From Candidatus Tectimicrobiota bacterium (lineage in GTDB: Bacteria > Tectomicrobia > Entotheonellia > Entotheonellales > Entotheonellaceae), in contig BPKO01000001.1 in the NCBI GenBank assembly GCA_026005175.1, positions 682,001-746,000 of the forward strand: a DNA stretch of 64,000 bases, written 5' to 3'. A program made the position numbers and the translations under genes. Below the pieces are notes generated by a model. That model was not told where the DNA came from and did not search any database. It saw only the letters and a list, made by a program, of their open reading frames with translations. Below are positions 36,067 to 48,262 of this stretch, in pieces (within the stretch, counting starts at the first letter, position 1; the number at the start of each line of letters is the position of its first letter).

Positions 36067-37480
36067 ATGACCCCTAGCGACGTTCTCAAGTTTGCCTCGG
36101 AGCACGGGGCCAAGATGCTCGACTTGCGCTTTCTCGACCTGCCAGGGCTGTGGCAGCACTTGACGGTGCCCATCAGCGAGCTGCGCGAGGAGGTGTTCAC
36201 CGAGGGGATCGGCTTTGACGGCTCGAGCATCCGTGGCTGGCAGGCCATCAACGCCAGCGACATGCTGGTCATTCCCGACCCCAACACGGCGCGCATGGAC
36301 CCCTTTACCAAAGAGCCGACGCTGGTGATGATTTGCGACATCGTCGACCCGGTGACGCGCGAGAACTACTCGCGCGACCCGCGCCACATCGCCAAGAAAG
36401 CCGAAGCCTACATGCGCGCCACGGGCATCGCCGACACCGCTTACTTCGGGGCCCGAGGCCGAGTTCTTCATCTTTGACGACATTCGCTACGAAAGCAATG
36501 AACACTCTGCTTTTTACTTTATAGACTCGGTCGAAGGGCAGTGGAACACCGGCCGCGACGAGAAGCCCAACCTGGGCTACAAGCCGCGCTACAAAGAAGG
36601 CTACTTCCCTGCCCCGCCCACCGACAGCCTGCAAGACATCCGCACCGAGATGGTGCTCCTCATGGAGCACCTGGGCATCCCGGTGGAAGCCCACCACCAC
36701 GAGGTGGCCACCGCTGGCCAGTGCGAAATCGACATGCGCTTTGACTCTCTGGTCAACATGGCCGACAAGCTGATGTGGTACAAGTACATCATCAAGAACG
36801 TGGCGCGCCGCCACAACAAGACCGCCACCTTCATGCCCAAGCCGCTGTTTAACGACAACGGCACCGGCATGCACACCCACCAGAGCCTGTGGAAGAATGG
36901 CCAGCCCCTCTTTGCCGGCGATGGCTACGCCGGCCTGAGCCAGACGGCGCTTTACTACATCGGCGGCATCCTCAAGCACGCCCCTGCCCTCTGCGCCCTG
37001 GTAGCCCCCACCACCAACTCCTACAAGCGGCTGGTGCCGGGCTTCGAAGCGCCGGTGAACCTGGCCTACTCGAGCCGCAACCGCAGCGCCGGGGTGCGCA
37101 TCCCTATGTACTCGCCCAGCCCCAAGGCCAAACGCATCGAGGTGCGCTTCCCCGATCCTTCCTGCAACCCCTACCTGGCCTTTGCCGCCATGCTCATGGC
37201 TGGCCTTGACGGCATCGAGAACCGTATCGATCCCGGCGAGCCGATGGACGTCGACCTCTACGAGCTGAGCCCGGCCGAGCTGAGCAAGGTGCCCTCGGTG
37301 CCTGGCTCCCTCGAAGAGGCCCTCGTGGCGCTGGAAAACGACCACGAGTTTCTCACCAAAGGGGATGTCTTTACCCAGGACGCGCTGGAGACGTGGATCA
37401 CCTACAAGCGCAAGCGCGAAATCGACCCGGTGCGCCTGCGGCCCCACCCCTACGAGTTCACGCTGTACTTTGACATCTAG
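36067..37480 (+). CDS. glnA: Type I glutamine synthetase GlnA, one-base frameshift
   Basis: ATP-dependent synthesis of glutamine from glutamate and ammonium; about 470 residues when joined. The N-terminal beta-grasp piece ([30 protein letters not shown]) is in one frame. Removing one G from the GGGG at 36448-36451 restores [13 protein letters not shown] and the rest of the catalytic domain ([44 protein letters not shown]). The Tyr of DVDLYELSP is the adenylylation site of GSI-beta enzymes. An essential gene broken at a homopolymer is most simply a sequencing error. Confidence 0.95.
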
Positions 37481-37487
37481 CCTGCAG

Positions 37488-37526
37488 GGCAGCCTCCCGC
37501 GGCCTGGCCGCGGGAAGCTGCCTTTT
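37488..37526 (+). terminator. Terminator after glnA
   Basis: GGCAGC and CCCGCGG pair with CCGCGGG and GCTGCC around CCTGG, with a CT/AA internal mismatch, then TTTT. It overlaps the last codon of the convergent Fur-rubrerythrin gene. Confidence 0.85.
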
Positions 37527-38484
37527 AGGAGGGCGCCGCGGAGAGGTGCAGCGCCTGGTATGCCTCGCGAATGAGGCGCAGGTGCCGCCGCTCTTCGCTG
37601 GCAAACTTCTTGAAAATGGCCTTTCCTTTGGGGTACTCCACCTTGTCGGCGTAGTCGTTGAAAAACTCGTACGAGCGCCGCTCGGCGCTCATCGCCAGGT
37701 AGAGCACCTCGGCGGGGCTGGCTGCCTGTACCAGCTGCACGATGTGCTGGCGGCTCTTGGGGAAAATGCTCTCCAGCCGCTCGTAGTCAAAGTAAAGCAG
37801 CGGTGGCTCGGCATTCAGCCAGGGGTGCGCCTGCCGCAGCGCCTCGTACTCGCGCTGCAAAGCGGCCAAGTGGCGCTTTTCTTCGTCGACCAGGCGGGTA
37901 AAGACGGCGCGCGTGGCCGCGTCGCGCGTCACTTCCAGAGCGCGGCTGTAAAAGTGCAGTCCCCGCTCCTCGTTGGCAATAGCCACCTGCAAGGCGTCGC
38001 GCGACAAAATGATGTCCAAGTCTTTGCCCCGCCGCCCCTGGGGCACCGTGGCCCGGCTACAGTCGCGGCAAACGCTGAGAATGCGCACCGCATGCGTCTG
38101 CGGCAAAAAGGCGTGGTCTTCCTGCACCTTGCGCAGCAGCGTGTCGAGTTCAGGGCTGAGAAACTCCAGGGTGCGGTTGCACGCGGTGCAGATGATGTGG
38201 TGGTGCTGGAAGCGGTCGGGCTCGTAGCGCAGCGTGCCGTCCCCGTAGTCGACGGTGCGCGCCAAGCCGCACGCCTGCAAGAGCTTCAGGGTGCGGTAGA
38301 CGGTGGCAAAGCCGACGCGCGGGTTCTTGCGGCGCACCTGCTCGTAGAGCTCTTGCGCCGAAAGGTGGGTCTCTGCCGCCAGAAAGACCTCAAGAATGTC
38401 CCGACGCGGCTTGGAGTGCTTGAGGTTTCTGGCCCGCAGGAAGTTCTCGAACACCTCCACTTCGTGCTGCATGGGCCGCTTCAT
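37525..38484 (-). CDS. Fur-family regulator fused to a rubrerythrin/ferritin-like diiron domain
   Basis: 319 residues. Residues 1-145 are a full Fur-type repressor: winged helix with FATVYRTLKLLQACGLA, the metal site HHHIICTACNRTLEF and a second CxxC (CRDCS). Residues 160-319 form a four-helix ferritin-like bundle with the repeated ligands E in ANEERGLHFY, DEEKRHLAAL, then AERRSYEFF and SEERRHLRLI. The fusion would join metal- or peroxide-sensing repression to a diiron peroxidase or iron-binding module. It might control the Fur boxes further upstream in this region; that is inference. ATG 38484 or 38472 are both possible starts. Confidence 0.88.
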   Translation of the reverse strand: MKRPMQHEVEVFENFLRARNLKHSKPRRDILEVFLAAETHLSAQELYEQVRRKNPRVGFATVYRTLKLLQACGLARTVDYGDGTLRYEPDRFQHHHIICTACNRTLEFLSPELDTLLRKVQEDHAFLPQTHAVRILSVCRDCSRATVPQGRRGKDLDIILSRDALQVAIANEERGLHFYSRALEVTRDAATRAVFTRLVDEEKRHLAALQREYEALRQAHPWLNAEPPLLYFDYERLESIFPKSRQHIVQLVQAASPAEVLYLAMSAERRSYEFFNDYADKVEYPKGKAIFKKFASEERRHLRLIREAYQALHLSAAPS

Positions 38485-38543: not shown

Positions 38544-39041
38544 TCAACGTGTTGCCCCGCTCCACATCTCCCACAGGGCGACGAGCAGCATGCCGCCGTA
38601 GCCCAGCCACATCGCCACCCAGGCCAGCAGCTGCAGCAAGGCCCAGGCCGGGGAGAGGTAACGCAGCAGCCAGTAAGCCGCCAGGTCGCCCAGGGAGCCC
38701 CCCAGGGCCAGCAGGATAAGTGCGGCTTTCCAGGGAGTGGCAAGGCCGGTGGCCAGGCAGAGGTGGGCCAAAATCAAGAACACCACCCCCATCATGAAGG
38801 CGTGGAAGTGGGTGAGCTCCAGGAGCTCGCCAAAGGTCTTGGGAAAGGCCATCGCCTCGCCCAGCTCGCCGCCGCGAAAGTATGCCGCGATGCGCGCCAG
38901 CGAGGGGCCGATGCGCCACAGCTGCATGACACCGTTGGTGCCCAGCCCCAAGGCGACAAAGAGCAAAAAGCCCGTGTACACCAGTTTGACCTCGCGCTGC
39001 GCCCGGCGCAGGCGAAAGCCGACTCGGACGAAGTCGCGCAT
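38544..39041 (-). CDS. Integral membrane protein of flavin/iron operon
   Basis: 165 residues with four predicted membrane helices: VYTGFLLFVALGLGTNGVMQ, HFHAFMMGVVFLILAHLCLA, ALILLALGGSLGDLAAYWLL and ALLQLLAWVAMWLGYGGMLL. Conserved-looking His residues in ELTHFHAFMMG and LAHLC could bind haem, but no family is recognised. Its start overlaps the apbE stop by one base (TGATG), so it is co-translated with the flavin-transfer genes. A role in passing electrons to the periplasmic FMN protein is plausible but unproven. Confidence 0.75.
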   Translation of the reverse strand: MRDFVRVGFRLRRAQREVKLVYTGFLLFVALGLGTNGVMQLWRIGPSLARIAAYFRGGELGEAMAFPKTFGELLELTHFHAFMMGVVFLILAHLCLATGLATPWKAALILLALGGSLGDLAAYWLLRYLSPAWALLQLLAWVAMWLGYGGMLLVALWEMWSGATR

Positions 39042-39904
39042 CAGACGCTCTCCTGCCAGAAGCGGCGCAAGCCAGGGGTGCAGCACGGCACGCCGCGGGG
39101 GCCGACGTATAGGACCTCCACGCCGCGGAAGCGCTTGAGCAGCCGCCGCCAGCGGCGGCCGTAAACCAGTACCGCGGTGCTCAGGGCTTCGGCCAAAGTG
39201 GCCGTGGGGGCCAGCACGGTGCTTTGCCGCCACTGCCTGAGGGGCTGGCCGCGGCGCGGGTCGACCACGTGCCCTATGCCCGGGGCCAGCTCGCGCCCCA
39301 AAGTGCAGGAGGTGGCCAGCGCCCCTTCCCCCATCCAGAGCAGGCCCAGCCACGCGCCTTCCTGCCGGCCGCGCACCGCGATGGGCCAGCGCTCGCCGCC
39401 CGGCGGCCTCCCCAGGGCGTAGAGGCTGCTGTCGCCAAAGTTGACAAACGCGCAGCGCACGCCCCCGCGGCGCAGGCGCGCCACCACGCGGTCCACCGCA
39501 TACCCCTTGCCGATGCCTCCCAAGTCGAGGCAGGCCCCCGGCGCCAGCGCCACCCAGCCCGGCGCCGGCAGCGAGAAGGCCGGCCGCGGCACGCCAGCAG
39601 AGCCCTGGCGCAGCACGCCGCCCACCGCCACATCAAAAGTGCCGCCGGTGCGGCGCTGCAGCCGCGCACAGCGCTTTAGCAGGGTCCACAGCGGCCGCGG
39701 CACGCGCACCGCGCCGCGGCCGGCCTGGCGGTTGAGGCGGCTGAGGGCACTGACGGGGTCGTGAGCGCTCAACAGCCCTTCCAGGCGCCGCACATCTTCA
39801 GCGCAGCGCCGCAGCAAAAAGCGGCCGTGCGCTTCGGGTATACCAAAGAGGGCCACATCGAGCAGGGTGCCCATGGCGTAGTGGAGCTCGCGCACTCCCT
39901 TCAT
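39041..39904 (-). CDS. apbE: ApbE-type FAD:protein FMN transferase
   Basis: 287 residues. ApbE enzymes use FAD to attach FMN covalently to a Ser/Thr in exported target proteins. Visible motifs: LHYAMGTLLDVALFG at the start, SALSRLNRQAG, the nucleotide-binding CLDLGGIGKGYAVDRVV, and DPRRGQPL then STVLAPTATLAEALSTAV with metal-site positions. No signal peptide is evident from ATG 39904, so either the start is internal or it acts in the cytoplasm. It overlaps the FMN-binding gene (its likely substrate) by four bases. Confidence 0.92.
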   Translation of the reverse strand: MKGVRELHYAMGTLLDVALFGIPEAHGRFLLRRCAEDVRRLEGLLSAHDPVSALSRLNRQAGRGAVRVPRPLWTLLKRCARLQRRTGGTFDVAVGGVLRQGSAGVPRPAFSLPAPGWVALAPGACLDLGGIGKGYAVDRVVARLRRGGVRCAFVNFGDSSLYALGRPPGGERWPIAVRGRQEGAWLGLLWMGEGALATSCTLGRELAPGIGHVVDPRRGQPLRQWRQSTVLAPTATLAEALSTAVLVYGRRWRRLLKRFRGVEVLYVGPRGVPCCTPGLRRFWQESV

Positions 39905-40464
39905 GGCGGCTTCCCAAACAGCACTTGCACCAGGGCCAGGGCCTTGCGCACGCCGCGGCCGATGCTGTAGCACGACAGCGTGGCGCCGGTGATGTTGCGG
40001 ATGTCGCGGTAAGGCAGCAGGGCATCGCGCAGGCTCTTGCCGGTGTACTGGGCCAGGAAGCGGCCGTAGCGCACCTCGCCGCCGTAAGGCTCGCGGTAGA
40101 CCATCACCGCCACGTCCTGCACCCGCCCGTTGGGGCGTACGCCGACGATAAAGGTAATCGGGCGGTGCTTGCCGATTTCCTCGACGATGACCCCGTAGCC
40201 CAGCAGGCGCTCCCCCCGCTTGGCCTTGAAAATTACGTATTCGGGCTCCCACAGCGAGGGGCGCGTGGCGCCCAGAAGCGCCTGCACCTTGGCGCGCAGC
40301 GCCGGGGTGGCAGGCACCACCAGGCGCTCAAAGGCGGTGGCGCGGGGAAACACCGCCGCCGGGGCCTCCGTCTCGCTGAGGTAGACGCCAGCCTGCGCCG
40401 CGGCGCGCGCCGCCAGCGCGAGCGGCGTCAAGAGCCCCTGCAAGAAGGCGCGGCGCTGCAGCAT
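39901..40464 (-). CDS. Exported FMN-binding-domain protein (ApbE substrate)
   Basis: 187 residues. A twin-Arg-like signal (RRAFLQGLLTPLALAARAAA) directs export. The FMN-binding domain lies in the second half, ending with NITGATLSCYSIGRG, where the Thr of TGAT-x-S is the expected site of covalent FMN attachment by ApbE. The middle shows GYGVIVEEIGKHRPITFIVG, typical of these domains. Predicted periplasmic one- or two-electron carrier. It starts four bases before the upstream porin stop region and overlaps apbE, so the three are one unit. Confidence 0.88.
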   Translation of the reverse strand: MLQRRAFLQGLLTPLALAARAAAQAGVYLSETEAPAAVFPRATAFERLVVPATPALRAKVQALLGATRPSLWEPEYVIFKAKRGERLLGYGVIVEEIGKHRPITFIVGVRPNGRVQDVAVMVYREPYGGEVRYGRFLAQYTGKSLRDALLPYRDIRNITGATLSCYSIGRGVRKALALVQVLFGKPP

Positions 40465-40468
40465 GGCT

Positions 40469-41887
40469 TTAGAAGCCAAAAGCCACCCCCACCAAGAACG
40501 CCTGCGCGGTATCTTCGTCTTCCTGAGCCGGCAGGAAGTTGGTGAGCCCGGCCAAGGAATCGGCGTCGGTAAAGGTGACTTCATAGGCCAGGGAAAACAC
40601 CCACAGCGGCGTCGGCCGGTACGCCAGGCCCAGCGTCAGGCGGTTCAGCGTGGCGTCGGCTGTCTCAAAAGCGGTGAGCACCCCATTGGCAAACTTAACC
40701 TCGGTGACCCGCTTGTCAAAAAAGACCTGCTCCCAGCGCAGCACGGGGACAAGCTGCGGGTTGGCAAAGCCCCGCCCCAGAACCGTCTGGCTCAGGGCGG
40801 CCGGCCAGAAAGGCAGGCGCAGCTCCACCCAGTAGCCGCTTTTGCTGCGCGCCAACTCGGCCAGCTCGAACTCGATTTCCGACTCAAACGCTGGGCTGGC
40901 GGCGCTGGGGGTGGCAGCCGCCTGCGTCACCACCGTGCGGGCAAAGGCGCGGGCCACCGCTTCGATGTTCTCCCAGCGGGTAAAGACGTACTCCCCTTCC
41001 ACTTCGAGCGGCCCGAGGCTCACCTTGCCGTCCACCCCCACCGACCACACGGTCTCCTCGGCGTCAAGAAAATCGGGGGTATACTCGCCCACGTAGCCCG
41101 AAACGGCCAGCTCGTAGCCCAGAAGCGGGCTAAGAAGCAGGCGCCCCACCACCGCCTTGTTCTCGTTGAAGTCTTTGTCAAAAGGGCCGGCCACCGGCCG
41201 GAACACGGCCTCCAGCTCCAGCTTGTCACGGCTTTCCAGGCGCGTCTGGGCGATTTCTTCCACCTCGGCGTCGAGCACCACGCCGTTGACCAGGTAGAGC
41301 TCGTAGCGCAGCAGCCCCTGGCGCCCCAGCGGCGTCTCGCCGGCAAAGCCAGCGCCCAGCTCGGTCCAGGCCGCCTTGGCGGGCAGCACCGGCACCCCGC
41401 GGTCCACCAGCGGCCGGCGCGGCAGGTTCCAGCGGTTGTCGTCATGGAAAATATTGAACCGCCCTAGCGGCGGCAGCACCGCTCCCACCCGCAAGTTAAA
41501 AAACGGCGCCAAGTCGTATTGTACCCAGGCCTGCTCCAGCTTGATTTCCGACTTGTTCGAGCCTTCCACCGCCTGCTCCACTTTGAGCCCGCCTTCGGTG
41601 GCCTCTACTTCGCGCTCCAGCTCCAAGGCAGTAAAGCGCTCGAATTCCAGCTCGAAGACAAAGCGCAAGCGCTCAGCGGGCGCGGCGTCCAGCGTCAGCA
41701 CGAAGCGCCGGAAGTCAAAGCCAGCGTTGCTCTCTTCCAAGTCGTTGGCCTCGAACTTGACCGAGCCGTAGCCGCCCAGGCGTACCCGCCCCGCCACCGC
41801 CTCGTACACCGCCTGCTGCGCCTGCCCGCTGCCTGCAAGACTCACCAGCCCCAGCACTGCGGCCCAGACAACCCGTCTCCGTCGCAT
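40469..41887 (-). CDS. Outer-membrane porin (phosphate-selective O/P-like)
   Basis: 472 residues. Signal peptide RRVVWAAVLGLVSLAGSGQA, then VRLGGYGSVKFEANDLEESN and FDFRRFVLTLDAAPAERLRF, characteristic of OprO/P-like 16- to 18-strand barrels. AWVQYDLAPFFNLRVGAVLP and FNIFHDDNRWNLPRRP follow. The last strand AFLVGVAFGF ends in Phe, as needed for barrel assembly. ATG 41887 follows GGAGGGG. Preceded by a Fur box, so probably induced under iron limitation; its cargo could be iron chelates. Confidence 0.87.
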   Translation of the reverse strand: MRRRRVVWAAVLGLVSLAGSGQAQQAVYEAVAGRVRLGGYGSVKFEANDLEESNAGFDFRRFVLTLDAAPAERLRFVFELEFERFTALELEREVEATEGGLKVEQAVEGSNKSEIKLEQAWVQYDLAPFFNLRVGAVLPPLGRFNIFHDDNRWNLPRRPLVDRGVPVLPAKAAWTELGAGFAGETPLGRQGLLRYELYLVNGVVLDAEVEEIAQTRLESRDKLELEAVFRPVAGPFDKDFNENKAVVGRLLLSPLLGYELAVSGYVGEYTPDFLDAEETVWSVGVDGKVSLGPLEVEGEYVFTRWENIEAVARAFARTVVTQAAATPSAASPAFESEIEFELAELARSKSGYWVELRLPFWPAALSQTVLGRGFANPQLVPVLRWEQVFFDKRVTEVKFANGVLTAFETADATLNRLTLGLAYRPTPLWVFSLAYEVTFTDADSLAGLTNFLPAQEDEDTAQAFLVGVAFGF

Positions 41888-41906
41888 CGCGCCCCCCTCC
41901 AAAATT

Positions 41907-41938
41907 GATCTTGAAAATAGTTTTCAGGATCAGATAAT
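41907..41938 (+). promoter_or_regulatory. Fur box and divergent promoter between porin operon and iron transporter
   Basis: TGAAAAT-A-GTTTTCA (41912-41926) fits the Fur 7-1-7 palindrome at 11 of 14 positions and sits inside a 25-base near-palindrome ending in GATC on both sides (41907-41931). For the plus strand, TTGAAA (41911-41916), 16-base spacer and GATAAT (41933-41938) form a promoter that Fur would block. Confidence 0.75.
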
Positions 41939-41987: not shown

Positions 41988-42992
41988 ATGGGACGTGGGC
42001 GCCTGTTTTGCTCTCTTGTTGGCCTGGTGGGGCTGGCTCTGATGCTGCCGGCGGCGGAGGCCGCCGAGGTGGTGGTTTACTCTTCGCGCATCGAGCAGCT
42101 CATCAAGCCGATGTTTGATGCCTTCACCGCCGCCAGTGGCATTCCGGTGCGGTACTTTACGGCCAGCGAGGCCGAACTCATCGAGCGGCTCAAGGCCGAA
42201 GGGGCCAACACCCCGGCCGACCTCTTTATGACCGTGGACGCCGGCAACCTCTGGCTTGCCGAGCAGGCCGGCCTGCTTCAGGGCGTGGCCTCGCCGGTGA
42301 TCGCCCGCCACATCCCGGCCCACCTGCGCGCCAAGGACAACGCCTGGGTGGGGCTTTCGGTGCGAGCGCGCCCCATCATGTACAGCAGCGAGCGCGTCAT
42401 GCCCGAAGAACTCTCCACGTACGAAGCGCTGGGGGATCCCAAGTGGCGAGGCCGGCTCTGCCTGCGCACCTCGCGCAAAGTGTACACGCAGTCGCTGGTG
42501 GCCGCGATGCTCAAGGCCCTGGGAGAAGCGCGCACGGAAGCGGTGCTGCGCGCCTGGATGGCCAACGAGCCGCGCATTTTCAACAGCGACACCAAAATGC
42601 TGGAGGCGATTGCCGCCGGCCAGTGCGACGTCACCATCGCCAACACCTACTATCTGGCCCGCCTCAAGGCCAAGGATCCCGACTTTCCGGTGGCGGTCTT
42701 CTGGCCCAACCAGCAAGACCGCGGCGTGCATGTCAACATCTCCGGTGCCGGCATCACTCGCCACGCCAAGCACCGCCAGGAGGCCCTGCGGCTGCTAGAG
42801 TTCCTGAGCGGGCCGGAGGCGCAGCGGCTTTACGCCGACGCCAACTACGAGTACCCAGCCAATCCGGCGGTAAAACCCCATCCCCTGATTGCCGCCTGGG
42901 GTACCTTTAAAGCCGATACCGTCGACGTGGCCGTCTTTGGCGAGTTGCAGGCGGCGGCGGTGAAGCTGCTCGACCGTGTGGGCTACCGCTAA
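41988..42992 (+). CDS. fbpA: Ferric-iron ABC transporter substrate-binding protein (FbpA/FutA-like)
   Basis: 334 residues, exported (signal LVGLVGLALMLPAAEAAE). The fold starts VVVYSSRIEQLIKPMFDAF and includes GISVRAR-type segment at about 120-130, FNSDTKMLEAIAAGQCDVTI and the iron-ligand tyrosines in ANTYYLARL. ISGAGITRHAKHRQEALRLL is the typical lobe-2 segment. Binds ferric iron in the periplasm and delivers it to FbpBC. Follows a Fur-box promoter and precedes the permease by 10 bases. Confidence 0.93.
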   Translation: MGRGRLFCSLVGLVGLALMLPAAEAAEVVVYSSRIEQLIKPMFDAFTAASGIPVRYFTASEAELIERLKAEGANTPADLFMTVDAGNLWLAEQAGLLQGVASPVIARHIPAHLRAKDNAWVGLSVRARPIMYSSERVMPEELSTYEALGDPKWRGRLCLRTSRKVYTQSLVAAMLKALGEARTEAVLRAWMANEPRIFNSDTKMLEAIAAGQCDVTIANTYYLARLKAKDPDFPVAVFWPNQQDRGVHVNISGAGITRHAKHRQEALRLLEFLSGPEAQRLYADANYEYPANPAVKPHPLIAAWGTFKADTVDVAVFGELQAAAVKLLDRVGYR

Positions 42993-43002
42993 AGGAGGCC
43001 TG

Positions 43003-44622
43003 ATGCGCTGGACCCCCTGGCCGCTGGCCGCCGCCCTGGTGGCCCTGCTGGTGGCCACCCCCCTTTTGGTGGTGGCGGCTTCCCTGCTGACGCCGAGCCT
43101 TGAGGTATGGCGCCACCTGTGGCAGACGCAACTGCCCGGGCTCATCGCCCACACCCTGGCGCTGATGGCCGGGGTGGGCCTGGGCGCCGGGGGGCTGGGC
43201 ACCGGCCTGGCCTGGCTGGTGGCCACTTACCGCTTTCCCGGCCACGCCTGGCTGGAGTGGCTCCTCGTCTTGCCGCTGGCGGTGCCGACGTACGTGATGG
43301 GCTTTGTCTTTCTTGGCCTCTTTGACTACGCCGGCCCGGTGCAGCGCTTGTGGCGCGGTCTTTTTGGCGCCGGGGCCTGGTTTCCCGAGGTGGCCTCTTA
43401 CGGCGGCGTGGTGGGGGTGATGAGCCTGGTGCTTTACCCTTATGTCTACGTGCTGGCGCGGGCGGCGTTCCTGGCGCAGTCGGCCACCTTGCTGGAAGCG
43501 GCCAGGGCGCTGGGCGCCCGGCGAGCAGAAGTCTTCTGGCGCGTGGCGCTGCCCCTGGCCCGCCCGGCCATCGCCGCCGGGGTGGCGCTGGCCGTCATGG
43601 AGGCCCTGGCCGACTTTGGCACGGTGGCCATATACAACTACCCGACCTTTACCGTAGCCATTTACCGCGTCTGGTTTGGCCTCTTCGACCGCGGCGCCGC
43701 CACCGAGCTGGCCGCCTTGCTCCTGACCTTCACCCTGACCCTGTTTTTTCTCGAGCGCTGGCTGCGCGGGCAAGCCCGCTTCGCCGCGGGCAGCAGCCTG
43801 CGCCCGCGGCAGCCGGTGCGGCTGCGCGGCTGGCGGGCAGGGCTGGCCACCGCTGCCGCCACCGCCGTGGTGGCGGTGGCCTTTGGCCTGCCGGTGGGCC
43901 AGCTGCTGGGGTGGACCCTTGCCAGCGTGGGTGGCAGCGCGTATGATGCCCACTACCTGCAGCTGGTGCGCAACACCGTGCTGCTGGCCGCCCTCACCGC
44001 TGTGGTGGCGCTGGTGGCGGCGGTGGTGGTGGCTTACGGGCTCAGGCTGAGCCGCAGTCGCTTCGTGGCGTTTTGCGGGCGCTTGGCCACCCTGGGCTAC
44101 GCCCTGCCGGGGTCGGTGATCGCCGTGGGGGTGCTGGGGCCGCTGAGCTTCCTTGATCGCACCCTCGACGGCTGGCTGCGCGCTACCTGGGGTGTGTCGA
44201 GCGGCCTGCTGCTCACCGGCTCCTTTGCCGGCTTGGTCTTTGCGTACGTGGTGCGCTTTTTGGCCATCAGCTGCCAGGCGGTGGAAGCCGGCCTGGCGGC
44301 CATTACCCCGAGCATGGACATGGCCGGGCGCTCCTTGGGGGCTACCGCGGGAGGGGTGCTGTGGCGCCTGCACTTGCCGCTGCTGCGCGGCGGCCTGTGC
44401 GGTGCCGCCTTGCTGGTGTTTGTCGACGTCATGAAGGAGATGCCGGCGACGCTGCTGCTGCGGCCTTTTGGGTACAATACCCTGGCGGTGCGCATTTGGG
44501 AGCTAACTTCGGAGTCTTTGTGGGAAGCGGCGGCGCTGCCGGCGCTCACCCTGGTGGCCGCCGGCCTGCTCCCGGTGGCGGTGCTGGTGCGCCGCAGCCG
44601 GCGCCCCGGGGCAGCCCCTTAA
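43003..44622 (+). CDS. fbpB: Ferric-iron ABC transporter permease (FbpB-like, fused two-domain)
   Basis: 539 residues, about 12 membrane helices in two homologous halves, each with an EAA loop: EAARALGARRAEVFWRVALP and AGRSLGATAGGVLWRLHLPL. This double-length arrangement is standard for FbpB. FVDVMKEMPATLLLRPFG is also characteristic of iron permeases. ATG 43003 is preceded by AAAGGAGG. Works with FbpA and FbpC in the inner membrane. Confidence 0.94.
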   Translation: MRWTPWPLAAALVALLVATPLLVVAASLLTPSLEVWRHLWQTQLPGLIAHTLALMAGVGLGAGGLGTGLAWLVATYRFPGHAWLEWLLVLPLAVPTYVMGFVFLGLFDYAGPVQRLWRGLFGAGAWFPEVASYGGVVGVMSLVLYPYVYVLARAAFLAQSATLLEAARALGARRAEVFWRVALPLARPAIAAGVALAVMEALADFGTVAIYNYPTFTVAIYRVWFGLFDRGAATELAALLLTFTLTLFFLERWLRGQARFAAGSSLRPRQPVRLRGWRAGLATAAATAVVAVAFGLPVGQLLGWTLASVGGSAYDAHYLQLVRNTVLLAALTAVVALVAAVVVAYGLRLSRSRFVAFCGRLATLGYALPGSVIAVGVLGPLSFLDRTLDGWLRATWGVSSGLLLTGSFAGLVFAYVVRFLAISCQAVEAGLAAITPSMDMAGRSLGATAGGVLWRLHLPLLRGGLCGAALLVFVDVMKEMPATLLLRPFGYNTLAVRIWELTSESLWEAAALPALTLVAAGLLPVAVLVRRSRRPGAAP

Positions 44623-44634
44623 GAGGCACGCGAC

Positions 44635-45669
44635 GTGGCGTTTTTGCAGCTCAAAGGCCTGGCCAAACGCTACCGGCCGCACGAGCCGCCAGCGGTAGAG
44701 GACCTCAGCTTCGGCGTGGCGCAGGGGGAAATCGTGGCCCTGCTGGGGCCCAGCGGCTGCGGCAAGACGACGACGCTGCGCCTCATTGCCGGCTTTGAGC
44801 GCCCCGACGCCGGCAGCGTGGAGCTGGGCGGCACCCTGCTGGTCGACCGCCACCGCTTCGTGCCCCCCGAGCGGCGCGGCGTGGGCATGGTGTTTCAGGA
44901 CTTTGCGCTTTTTCCCCACCTCACGGTGGCCGCCAACGTGGCCTTTGGCCTGCGGCGGCTCGACGCCGCGGCGCGCGCCGCCCGCGTCGAGGAAATGCTC
45001 GCCTTGGTTGAGCTCACGGCCCTGGCGCGGCGCTACCCGCATGAGCTCTCCAGCGGCCAGCAGCAGCGCGTGGCCCTGGCGCGTGCCCTGGCGCCGCGCC
45101 CGGCGGTGCTGCTGCTCGATGAGCCCTTCAGCAACCTCGACGCCCGCCTGCGCTGGCAGATGCTGCACGAAGTACGCGCCCTGCTGCGCCGCCTGCACGT
45201 CACCGCCCTCTTTGTTACCCACGACCAGGAAGAAGCCTTTGCCCTGGCCGACCGCGTGGGGGTCATGCAGCAGGGGCGGCTGGAGCAGCTGGACACCCCC
45301 GAGGCCCTTTACTACGCGCCGCGCACCCGCTTTGTTGCCAGTTTTGTCGGCCCGGCCAGCTTCCTCCCCGGCCAGGTGACGGGCGGCGGCATCCTTACCG
45401 AGCTGGGCACCTTTCCCAACGACACCGGCCTTTCCCCCGGCGCCCGCGTCGAGGTCATGCTGCGACCCGACGCCTTGCACCTGCGCCCGCACCCGCAGGG
45501 CCAAGGACGCGTGGTGGCCCGCCACTTCCGCGGCCCCTTCACCCTCGTCGAGGTGCAGCTCCCCTCCGGCGCCCGCCTGCAGGCCGCCCTCTCCGGCACC
45601 GGCGCCCTGCCAAGCCGCGTGCACGTGGAAGTCGACCCGCAGCGCGCCGTTGCCTTCCCTTGCGCCTAG
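44635..45669 (+). CDS. fbpC: Ferric-iron ABC transporter ATPase (FbpC-like)
   Basis: 344 residues. Walker A is LLGPSGCGKTTTLRLIAG, the signature is LSSGQQQRVALARALA, Walker B is VLLLDEPFSNLDARL and the H-loop is VTHDQEEAF. A C-terminal TOBE-type regulatory region follows (VEVMLRPDALHL; GPFTLVEVQLPSGARL), as in FbpC. GTG 44635 is used with GAGG upstream; the permease stop lies 12 bases before. Last gene of the fbpABC operon. Confidence 0.95.
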   Translation: MAFLQLKGLAKRYRPHEPPAVEDLSFGVAQGEIVALLGPSGCGKTTTLRLIAGFERPDAGSVELGGTLLVDRHRFVPPERRGVGMVFQDFALFPHLTVAANVAFGLRRLDAAARAARVEEMLALVELTALARRYPHELSSGQQQRVALARALAPRPAVLLLDEPFSNLDARLRWQMLHEVRALLRRLHVTALFVTHDQEEAFALADRVGVMQQGRLEQLDTPEALYYAPRTRFVASFVGPASFLPGQVTGGGILTELGTFPNDTGLSPGARVEVMLRPDALHLRPHPQGQGRVVARHFRGPFTLVEVQLPSGARLQAALSGTGALPSRVHVEVDPQRAVAFPCA

Positions 45670-45711: not shown

Positions 45712-45734
45712 ATAATGAGAACTGTTCTCATTAT
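45712..45734 (+). promoter_or_regulatory. Fur box upstream of XRE regulator 1
   Basis: A perfect 11-1-11 palindrome, ATAATGAGAAC-T-GTTCTCATTAT, containing the 7-1-7 core TGAGAAC-T-GTTCTCA. It matches two overlapping Fur dimers and is the strongest Fur box in the window. It overlaps a GATAAT -10-like hexamer. Confidence 0.85.
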
Positions 45735-46093: not shown

Positions 46094-46558
46094 ATGGACG
46101 TGCAAGCCGCCCTGCAAGTCTTGAACAAGGCCCTGGCGCTCGAGTATGCGGGGGTCTTGCAGTACCTGCAGCAGAGCTTCTTGGTGCAGGGGCCTTACCG
46201 CGAAGTGCATGCCGACTTTTTCCGCAAGCTGAGCGACGAGTGCCGCACGCACGCGGCTCGCCTCGGCACTTACATTGTGCTCCTCAACGGCGTCCCCACC
46301 GTGGAGCCGGCTCCCATCAGGCAGTCCACCGACCTCACCGAGATGCTCAAAAACAGCCTCGAGCTCGAGCGCGAGGCGTACAACACCTACCTTGAAGGCG
46401 TGCGCGTGGCGGCCGACGAGGTGCCGCTGCGCTTGCTGTGCGAGGAGCTTGCTTACGACGAGCGCCTGCACATGGAAGCGTTCGAAAAGATGCTGGCGCA
46501 GAAAGCCCTGCGCCTTGCCGACGCCGAGCGCGAGATCGTGCTTACCCGGAGTGCCTGA
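46094..46558 (+). CDS. Ferritin-like diiron protein (bacterioferritin-type bundle)
   Basis: 154 residues, four-helix bundle. Ligand pattern: Glu in NKALALEYAGVLQYLQQS, E and H in SDECRTHAARLG, Glu in ELEREAYNTYLEGV, and DERLHMEAFEKML. The spacing fits a diiron ferritin-like protein rather than Dps. It lacks the Met52-type haem ligand that would mark a true bacterioferritin as far as I can see. Start ATG 46094 follows GAGGAGAAGG. Role could be iron storage, ferroxidase or peroxide removal in the iron region. Confidence 0.8.
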   Translation: MDVQAALQVLNKALALEYAGVLQYLQQSFLVQGPYREVHADFFRKLSDECRTHAARLGTYIVLLNGVPTVEPAPIRQSTDLTEMLKNSLELEREAYNTYLEGVRVAADEVPLRLLCEELAYDERLHMEAFEKMLAQKALRLADAEREIVLTRSA

Positions 46559-47086: not shown

Positions 47087-47101
47087 TGATAATAATTCTC
47101 A
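47087..47101 (-). promoter_or_regulatory. Fur box upstream of XRE regulator 2
   Basis: TGATAAT-A-ATTCTCA fits the Fur 7-1-7 palindrome at 13 of 14 positions. It lies in the 37-base gap between the XRE gene and the gene before it. Confidence 0.8.
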
Positions 47102-48247: not shown

Positions 48248-48262
48248 TGATAATGAATTTCA
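48248..48262 (-). promoter_or_regulatory. Fur box upstream of small paralog B
   Basis: TGATAAT-G-AATTTCA fits the Fur 7-1-7 palindrome at 12 of 14 positions. It lies upstream of the minus-strand small-protein operon. Confidence 0.65.

Follow-up and report, generated by a model that had tools for sequence, protein, structure and literature searches.

Protein flavinylation has been linked to five classes of transmembrane proteins, and a role for it in assimilatory iron reduction has been proposed (Meheust et al. 2021, PMC8238504). The iron systems associated with it comprise PepSY-like/DUF2271, MsrQ-like and P19-associated ones, of which the PepSY-like clusters are reported to be repressed by Fur (PMC8238504). 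Furthermore, DUF4405 and FezC have been characterised as flavinylation- and ferrosome-associated cytochromes, with models of FezC in which the heme sites are formed by homodimerisation (Huang et al. 2024, PMC11334425). Here we describe a four-gene operon that encodes a porin, a protein binding flavin mononucleotide (FMN), its flavin transferase ApbE and a small membrane protein. It lies in a stretch of 64,000 nucleotides from a Candidatus Tectimicrobiota bacterium (assembly GCA_026005175.1, contig BPKO01000001.1, positions 682,001 to 746,000), hereafter the window. The operon is probably a Fur-controlled module for the reduction of ferric iron in the periplasm, since the gene set recurs across phyla, often together with Fur control and iron importers.

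As in the systems of PMC8238504, the window co-locates ApbE, an exported protein predicted to be flavinylated and iron transporters, whereas its membrane protein falls outside all five transmembrane classes by Pfam. With DUF4405 and FezC it shares the arrangement of an unnamed membrane protein beside ApbE with conserved membrane histidines. However, DUF4405 has six helices, while the window protein has four, only one of them histidine-bearing, and no Pfam match. A porin is mentioned in the text of neither PMC8238504 nor PMC11334425, and no description of the four-gene set was found in the open-access literature, subscription papers and supplements lying outside the search. In addition, a search against FMN_bind leaves 13 of the family's 37 FMN proteins short of an E value of 1e-3, so that a Pfam-based survey would miss many of those belonging to the module. 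The four genes, in the order of transcription, are the following:

40469..41887, minus strand: outer-membrane porin with an OprP/OprO-like fold, modelled as a 16-strand barrel (Porin_O_P near the cut-off, AlphaFold2 model, Foldseek)
39901..40464, minus strand: exported FMN-binding protein with a TGAT motif and a Tat-like (twin-arginine translocation) signal (Pfam FMN_bind, sequence)
39041..39904, minus strand: ApbE, a FAD (flavin adenine dinucleotide):protein FMN transferase, lacking a signal peptide (Pfam ApbE)
38544..39041, minus strand: four-helix membrane protein with E-x2-H-x-H-x12-H in helix 2, of no named family (alignment, model)

All four were thus found where the original prediction had placed them, on the minus strand between 38544 and 41887 and tightly spaced. 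The porin and FMN genes are separated by 4 bases, the FMN gene overlaps ApbE by 4 bases and ApbE overlaps the membrane-protein gene by 1 base, which makes translational coupling plausible.

The recurrence of this gene order had been proposed in the original prediction as a check. An alignment of the membrane protein was scanned against the contigs of 84,980 species, which yielded 116 relatives, of which 80 were kept; because the scan used the membrane protein alone, the neighbouring genes provide an unbiased test. These neighbour counts are lower bounds, as several of the 80 loci are contig ends. The relatives belong to the Methylococcales, Myxococcota and other deltaproteobacteria, Binatota, Rokubacteria, Tectomicrobia and Krumholzibacteriota. 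The FMN gene is directly upstream of the membrane-protein gene in all 80 loci, at a spacing of -4 to +60 bases, and the porin, the most constant neighbour after it, is present in 72. ApbE is encoded in 53 of the 80; a Fur gene occurs in 13 loci, for the most part immediately ahead of the porin. The set is therefore found repeatedly across several bacterial phyla. With regard to its frequency, profile searches detected relatives of the membrane protein in 41 of 386 genomes, and in two of the four genomes from the family of the source organism, an Entotheonellaceae-type Tectomicrobium. Among the closest whole-genome relatives within that family is an uncultured Candidatus Entotheonella (OY282375), in which the porin (L015:7741-9019) appears to occupy two overlapping frames, as if frameshifted. 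In the methanotroph loci L023, L062 and L069 (also L095 and L097, from Methylomonas koyamae), a CCP_MauG di-heme protein is encoded between the porin and the FMN gene, or beside the porin.

The porin itself is marginal in Pfam, with 19.7 bits against Porin_O_P for a cut-off of 20.9 (E 5.5e-4). Its AlphaFold2 model contains 16 long strands at a mean predicted local distance difference test (pLDDT) score of 72, and the closest solved folds are OprP and OprO (Foldseek; E 2e-13 for OprP). The window porin thus has, in the model, the 16-stranded barrel and fold of OprP/OprO-type porins, which bears out the identity first given to it. The steadiness of the porin as a neighbour, second to that of the FMN protein, would also suit a different arrangement, in which the two proteins together conduct electrons across the outer membrane and out of the cell, as a flavin-based analogue of porin-cytochrome complexes. 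This appears very improbable: a general-porin fold of about 16 strands is, judging from the model, probably too narrow for a 20-kDa protein, a single flavin would be unable to span the outer membrane and no surface reductase was seen.

The FMN protein scores 29.8 bits against FMN_bind (cut-off 22) and contains the flavinylation motif DIRNITGATLS, of which the predicted TGAT occupies residues 159-162. A profile of its family matches RnfG in the PDB (E 4e-11), although the window protein reaches only 19.4 bits against rnfG, for a cut-off of 102, and hence does not qualify as an RnfG/NqrC subunit of RNF/NQR. Its N-terminus, MLQRRAFLQGLL...AAAQA, agrees with the predicted signal and reads as a Tat-like leader; leaders were judged by eye here, without a signal-peptide program. 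ApbE matches its Pfam family with 150.7 bits (cut-off 25.6) and contains the GGIGKGY, HVVDPRRG and AEALSTA motifs, as do its relatives. Encoded together with its FMN_bind substrate, as in flavin electron-transfer systems, it is the single ApbE found in the whole source genome (77% complete), which likewise yielded a single FMN_bind gene. From the motif and the coupled ApbE, one covalent FMN is predicted on the FMN protein.

By inspection, the window ApbE has no hydrophobic leader, its domain starting at residue 11, and so does not resemble an extracytosolic ApbE. Since it is devoid of a signal while the FMN protein has a Tat-like leader, flavinylation is expected to take place in the cytosol, and the FMN is probably attached before Tat export in this organism, whose genome encodes TatC. 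As far as the sequence indicates, flavinylation in the window is thus different from the usual wholly periplasmic type. The other loci mostly have a leader on ApbE, sometimes Tat-like, and a Sec-type signal on the FMN protein, while the nearest relative, G358, is arranged as the window, with an FMN protein starting in MLSRRHFL and an ApbE without leader. The possibility that ApbE is inactive, raised by a Glu in place of the canonical Asp, was rejected because Glu is the commoner residue in the family, with 31 Glu to 16 Asp among the genes in which the motif was located, some of them fetched more than once. Fusions of the FMN protein and ApbE in a single frame occur at L113:5258-6763, L168:3936-5108, L177:7557-9344 and L189:5387-6748, and in L113 and L177 the fusion is followed by the membrane-protein gene. 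At L064, L068, L077 and L085, the ApbE on the side of the module seems, by eye from the sequence, to head a convergent NQR-looking operon, so that one ApbE may serve both the module and NQR.

The membrane protein is modelled with four long helices (pLDDT 91.5). In an alignment of 50 members, E75, H78, H80 and H93 are invariant, as are N36, G57, M84 and W124. In the model, E75-H80 lie close to one end of helix 2 and H93 close to the opposite end, and by the positive-inside rule the E75-H80 end would be periplasmic. The spacing of 13 residues between H80 and H93 resembles that of heme ligands in b-type cytochromes. As the invariant histidines are confined to one helix, a bis-histidine heme would need a dimer, as in the FezC models. 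Remote relatives often keep the H-x-H and lose H93, and most of them still adjoin an FMN-protein gene. A redox role of this protein is putative.

With regard to regulation and iron transport, the flanks of the operon contain the following features:

41906..41932, no strand: Fur-box palindrome TGATCTTGAAAA-TAG-TTTTCAGGATCA between the porin and iron-transporter genes (inverted repeat)
41911..41938, plus strand: promoter-like TTGAAA-16-GATAAT of the divergent transporter, overlapped by the Fur box (sequence)
41988..42992, plus strand: Fe3+ ABC (ATP-binding cassette) transporter substrate-binding protein of the FbpA/FutA type (PDB match)
42976..44622, plus strand: two-domain ABC permease of the FbpB type (two stretches of BPD_transp_1)
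44635..45669, plus strand: ABC ATPase with a TOBE_2 domain, FbpC type (domain match; 57% identity to the ATPase of the G358 cluster)
37525..38484, minus strand: Fur-family repressor fused to a ferritin-like (rubrerythrin) domain (FUR 1.4e-29, Rubrerythrin 3.6e-12)

The Fur box that had been predicted ahead of the operon is real, and of the kind expected of a Fur regulon: a palindrome with arms of 12 nucleotides inside the promoter region of 100 bases, matching TGATAATnATTATCA with three mismatches, and also covering the -35 element of the divergent transporter promoter. At up to three mismatches, three sites match this pattern in the window, where 0.08 would be expected over 64 kb. Moreover, a 7-1-7 Fur box with at most three mismatches was located close to the start of the porin gene in 26 of 62 loci, whereas among the remaining genes of these loci, which served as controls, only 11 of 399 had one (Fisher 3e-17). 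Shuffled regions yielded 1.6 boxes per 74 as opposed to 27 in the real ones. Fur control is, judging by these box counts, a trait of the family as regards the E. coli-type pattern, with a wider set at chance level (see below). Further Fur-box-like sites lie within 7 kb, at window positions 45712-45734, 47087-47101 and 48248-48262. The first of these is a perfect 11-1-11 palindrome ahead of two genes, one for a small helix-turn-helix protein and one for a ferritin-like protein (46094-46558).

The divergent operon encodes a ferric ABC importer, whose binding protein matches a 'Fe(3+) ABC transporter substrate-binding protein' (7li0) with an E value of 3e-99. It is one of the FbpABC/FutABC importers, for which, to our knowledge, an association with a porin and a flavin module is not usually reported. 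The G358 cluster encodes on a single strand Fur, a ferric substrate-binding protein, a permease, an ATPase, the porin, a multicopper oxidase, the FMN protein, ApbE and the membrane protein. Its identities to the window amount to 56% for the porin, 62% for the FMN protein, 36% for ApbE, 51% for the membrane protein and 57% for the ATPase, and the best match of its ferric binding protein in the PDB is likewise described as a ferric iron-binding protein (E 1e-37). The same set is arranged in a different order in G229, which belongs to the genus of G358, and G347 encodes, one after another, an ABC ATPase, P19 (an iron protein; PF10634, E 1e-46), the porin, the FMN protein, ApbE and the membrane protein. 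On the evidence of these clusters, the module is accompanied by all or part of a ferric ABC importer not only in the window but also in G347 and one further genus. In L081, L087 and L092, FeoA/FeoB are instead divergent from the porin; the Feo profiles were run on L087 only, with whose FeoB those of L081 and L092 cluster.

These neighbours bear on whether the flavin route might have a different redox purpose in the periplasm, for example in copper reduction, the maturation of oxidases or respiration, and only be co-regulated with iron. The di-heme protein between the porin and the FMN gene of some methanotroph loci and the multicopper oxidase of G358 and G229 would suit such a task, and CrpH, a PepSY_TM protein, is reported to support the function of heme-copper oxidoreductases (PMC13038864). 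We nevertheless find this quite unlikely, given that the module repeatedly comes with Fur genes, with Fur boxes and with iron importers of several unrelated kinds, and that the best alignment of the multicopper oxidase is to the ferroxidase ceruloplasmin, each third of which it matches with about 300 bits. A two-domain bacterial multicopper oxidase, most like single ceruloplasmin repeats (about 300 bits each), lies inside the iron cluster at L163:9080-10237 and L192:8247-9443.

For the module as a route of ferric reduction, the following sequence of steps is proposed. In the window's organism, cytosolic ApbE would load FMN, after which Tat would export the FMN protein. The porin would admit small ferric complexes to the periplasm, where the FMN protein, with its one covalent FMN, would donate electrons to ferric iron as the presumed acceptor. 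The four-helix protein would take electrons from the quinone pool of the membrane and hand them on to the FMN protein, which is the weakest step, possibly via heme on the conserved histidines of a homodimer. Entry of the iron would then proceed via the linked importer, the divergent ferric ABC transporter here and FeoAB or ABC systems elsewhere.

Several observations weigh against this proposal. The 80 loci share descent and are not phylogenetically independent, so that they should not be counted as separate events. No E. coli-type Fur box was found in the Entotheonella relative, G358 or G229, and a wider, more divergent set of 37 loci gave 18 boxes near the module as compared with 18 expected over the whole loci. 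Neither a multicopper oxidase nor a convincing FeoB was found in the incomplete source genome, where FeoB_N matches were set aside as other GTPases (short frames, weak scores). Furthermore, the window importer is of the ferric type, which needs no reduction and is in tension with an adjacent ferric reductase; reduction may free the iron from its complexes, with re-oxidation preceding capture. Finally, none of the 50 members of the membrane-protein alignment matched NapH, MsrQ, PepSY, DsbD, NQR/RNF-like families or DUF4405 in Pfam, even at an E value of 1. No relative was found in Pfam or among PDB sequences, and the fold matches (Foldseek, VIA-align) were generic helical bundles and nothing better. 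Weak matches to GtrA and mPGES-1 were dropped as chance or a common arrangement. A distant fold kinship with the named transmembrane classes of flavinylation is possible from the model.

The absence of a redox-family match in Pfam or the PDB would also be expected if the four-helix protein were a metal permease or metal-handling protein of a Fur-regulated iron uptake system, its E-x2-H-x-H, close to the periplasmic face, binding the iron released by an FMN protein whose flavin is reduced in some other way. The invariance of E75, H78, H80 and H93 among the 50 members is in keeping with this, as is the persistence of mainly the H-x-H in remote relatives. Notwithstanding, an inner-membrane importer already adjoins the module in the window, G358, G229 and partly G347, and the constant partner of the protein is the FMN protein and no transporter, which renders a metal-handling function unlikely. 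The original prediction would have given way before a membrane protein unrelated to redox families. Taken literally, that is what was found, with no sequence relative in Pfam or the PDB, yet its weight is limited: the lack of kinship is weaker than it sounds, because the FMN gene is coupled in all 80 loci and the membrane histidines are invariant. A Fur-controlled flavin route in iron uptake is well supported by the recurrence, the Fur boxes, the adjacent Fur genes and the iron importers, with the reduction of ferric iron as its proposed function.

The proposed ferric reduction could be part of a longer chain. In G358 and G229, the pairing of a putative flavin reductase, a ceruloplasmin-like oxidase and a ferric importer can be likened to the reductive-oxidative uptake of yeast and algae, with its ferric reductase, multicopper ferroxidase and ferric permease, and to bacterial FtrABCD. 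Their oxidase would fit re-oxidation before capture, although none was found in the window's genome, and the importer is an ABC system rather than Ftr1. Tentatively, and as a rather doubtful extension, the module might be a bacterial reductive-oxidative iron importer under Fur. It would consist of the porin, a flavin reductase with a new four-helix electron carrier in the membrane and a ferric ABC importer, joined in some lineages by a ceruloplasmin-like ferroxidase, with cytosolic flavin loading and Tat export in the window's branch. Such a system might be the bacterial counterpart of the reductase-ferroxidase-permease chain of eukaryotes. If the ferric-reducing role holds true, the four-helix protein would represent a new class of transmembrane partner for flavinylation-based electron routes, linked to iron nutrition. 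Its hosts include methanotrophs, Myxococcota, Binatota and Tectomicrobia, in which periplasmic iron reduction has been little studied, and cultured ones such as Methylomonas make the question testable.

Beyond the operon, 60 bases downstream of the membrane-protein gene and on the same strand, lies the gene for the Fur-ferritin fusion. Its ferritin-like domain contains two ExxH motifs, which suggest that this repressor possibly has a di-iron site of its own. Full-length fusions with 65-69% identity were detected in three genomes of the same family (L120, L121 and L122), while the other genomes searched gave only single-domain matches, and no description of such a fusion was found in the literature search. 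A Fur repressor carrying a possible di-iron site merits separate study. An Rfam scan of the 64-kb window returned no match. Lastly, a glutamine synthetase gene on the plus strand (window positions 36067-37480), 3' of a P-II gene, is split into the frames 36067-36477 and 36650-37480, which appears to reflect a frameshift or an assembly error.

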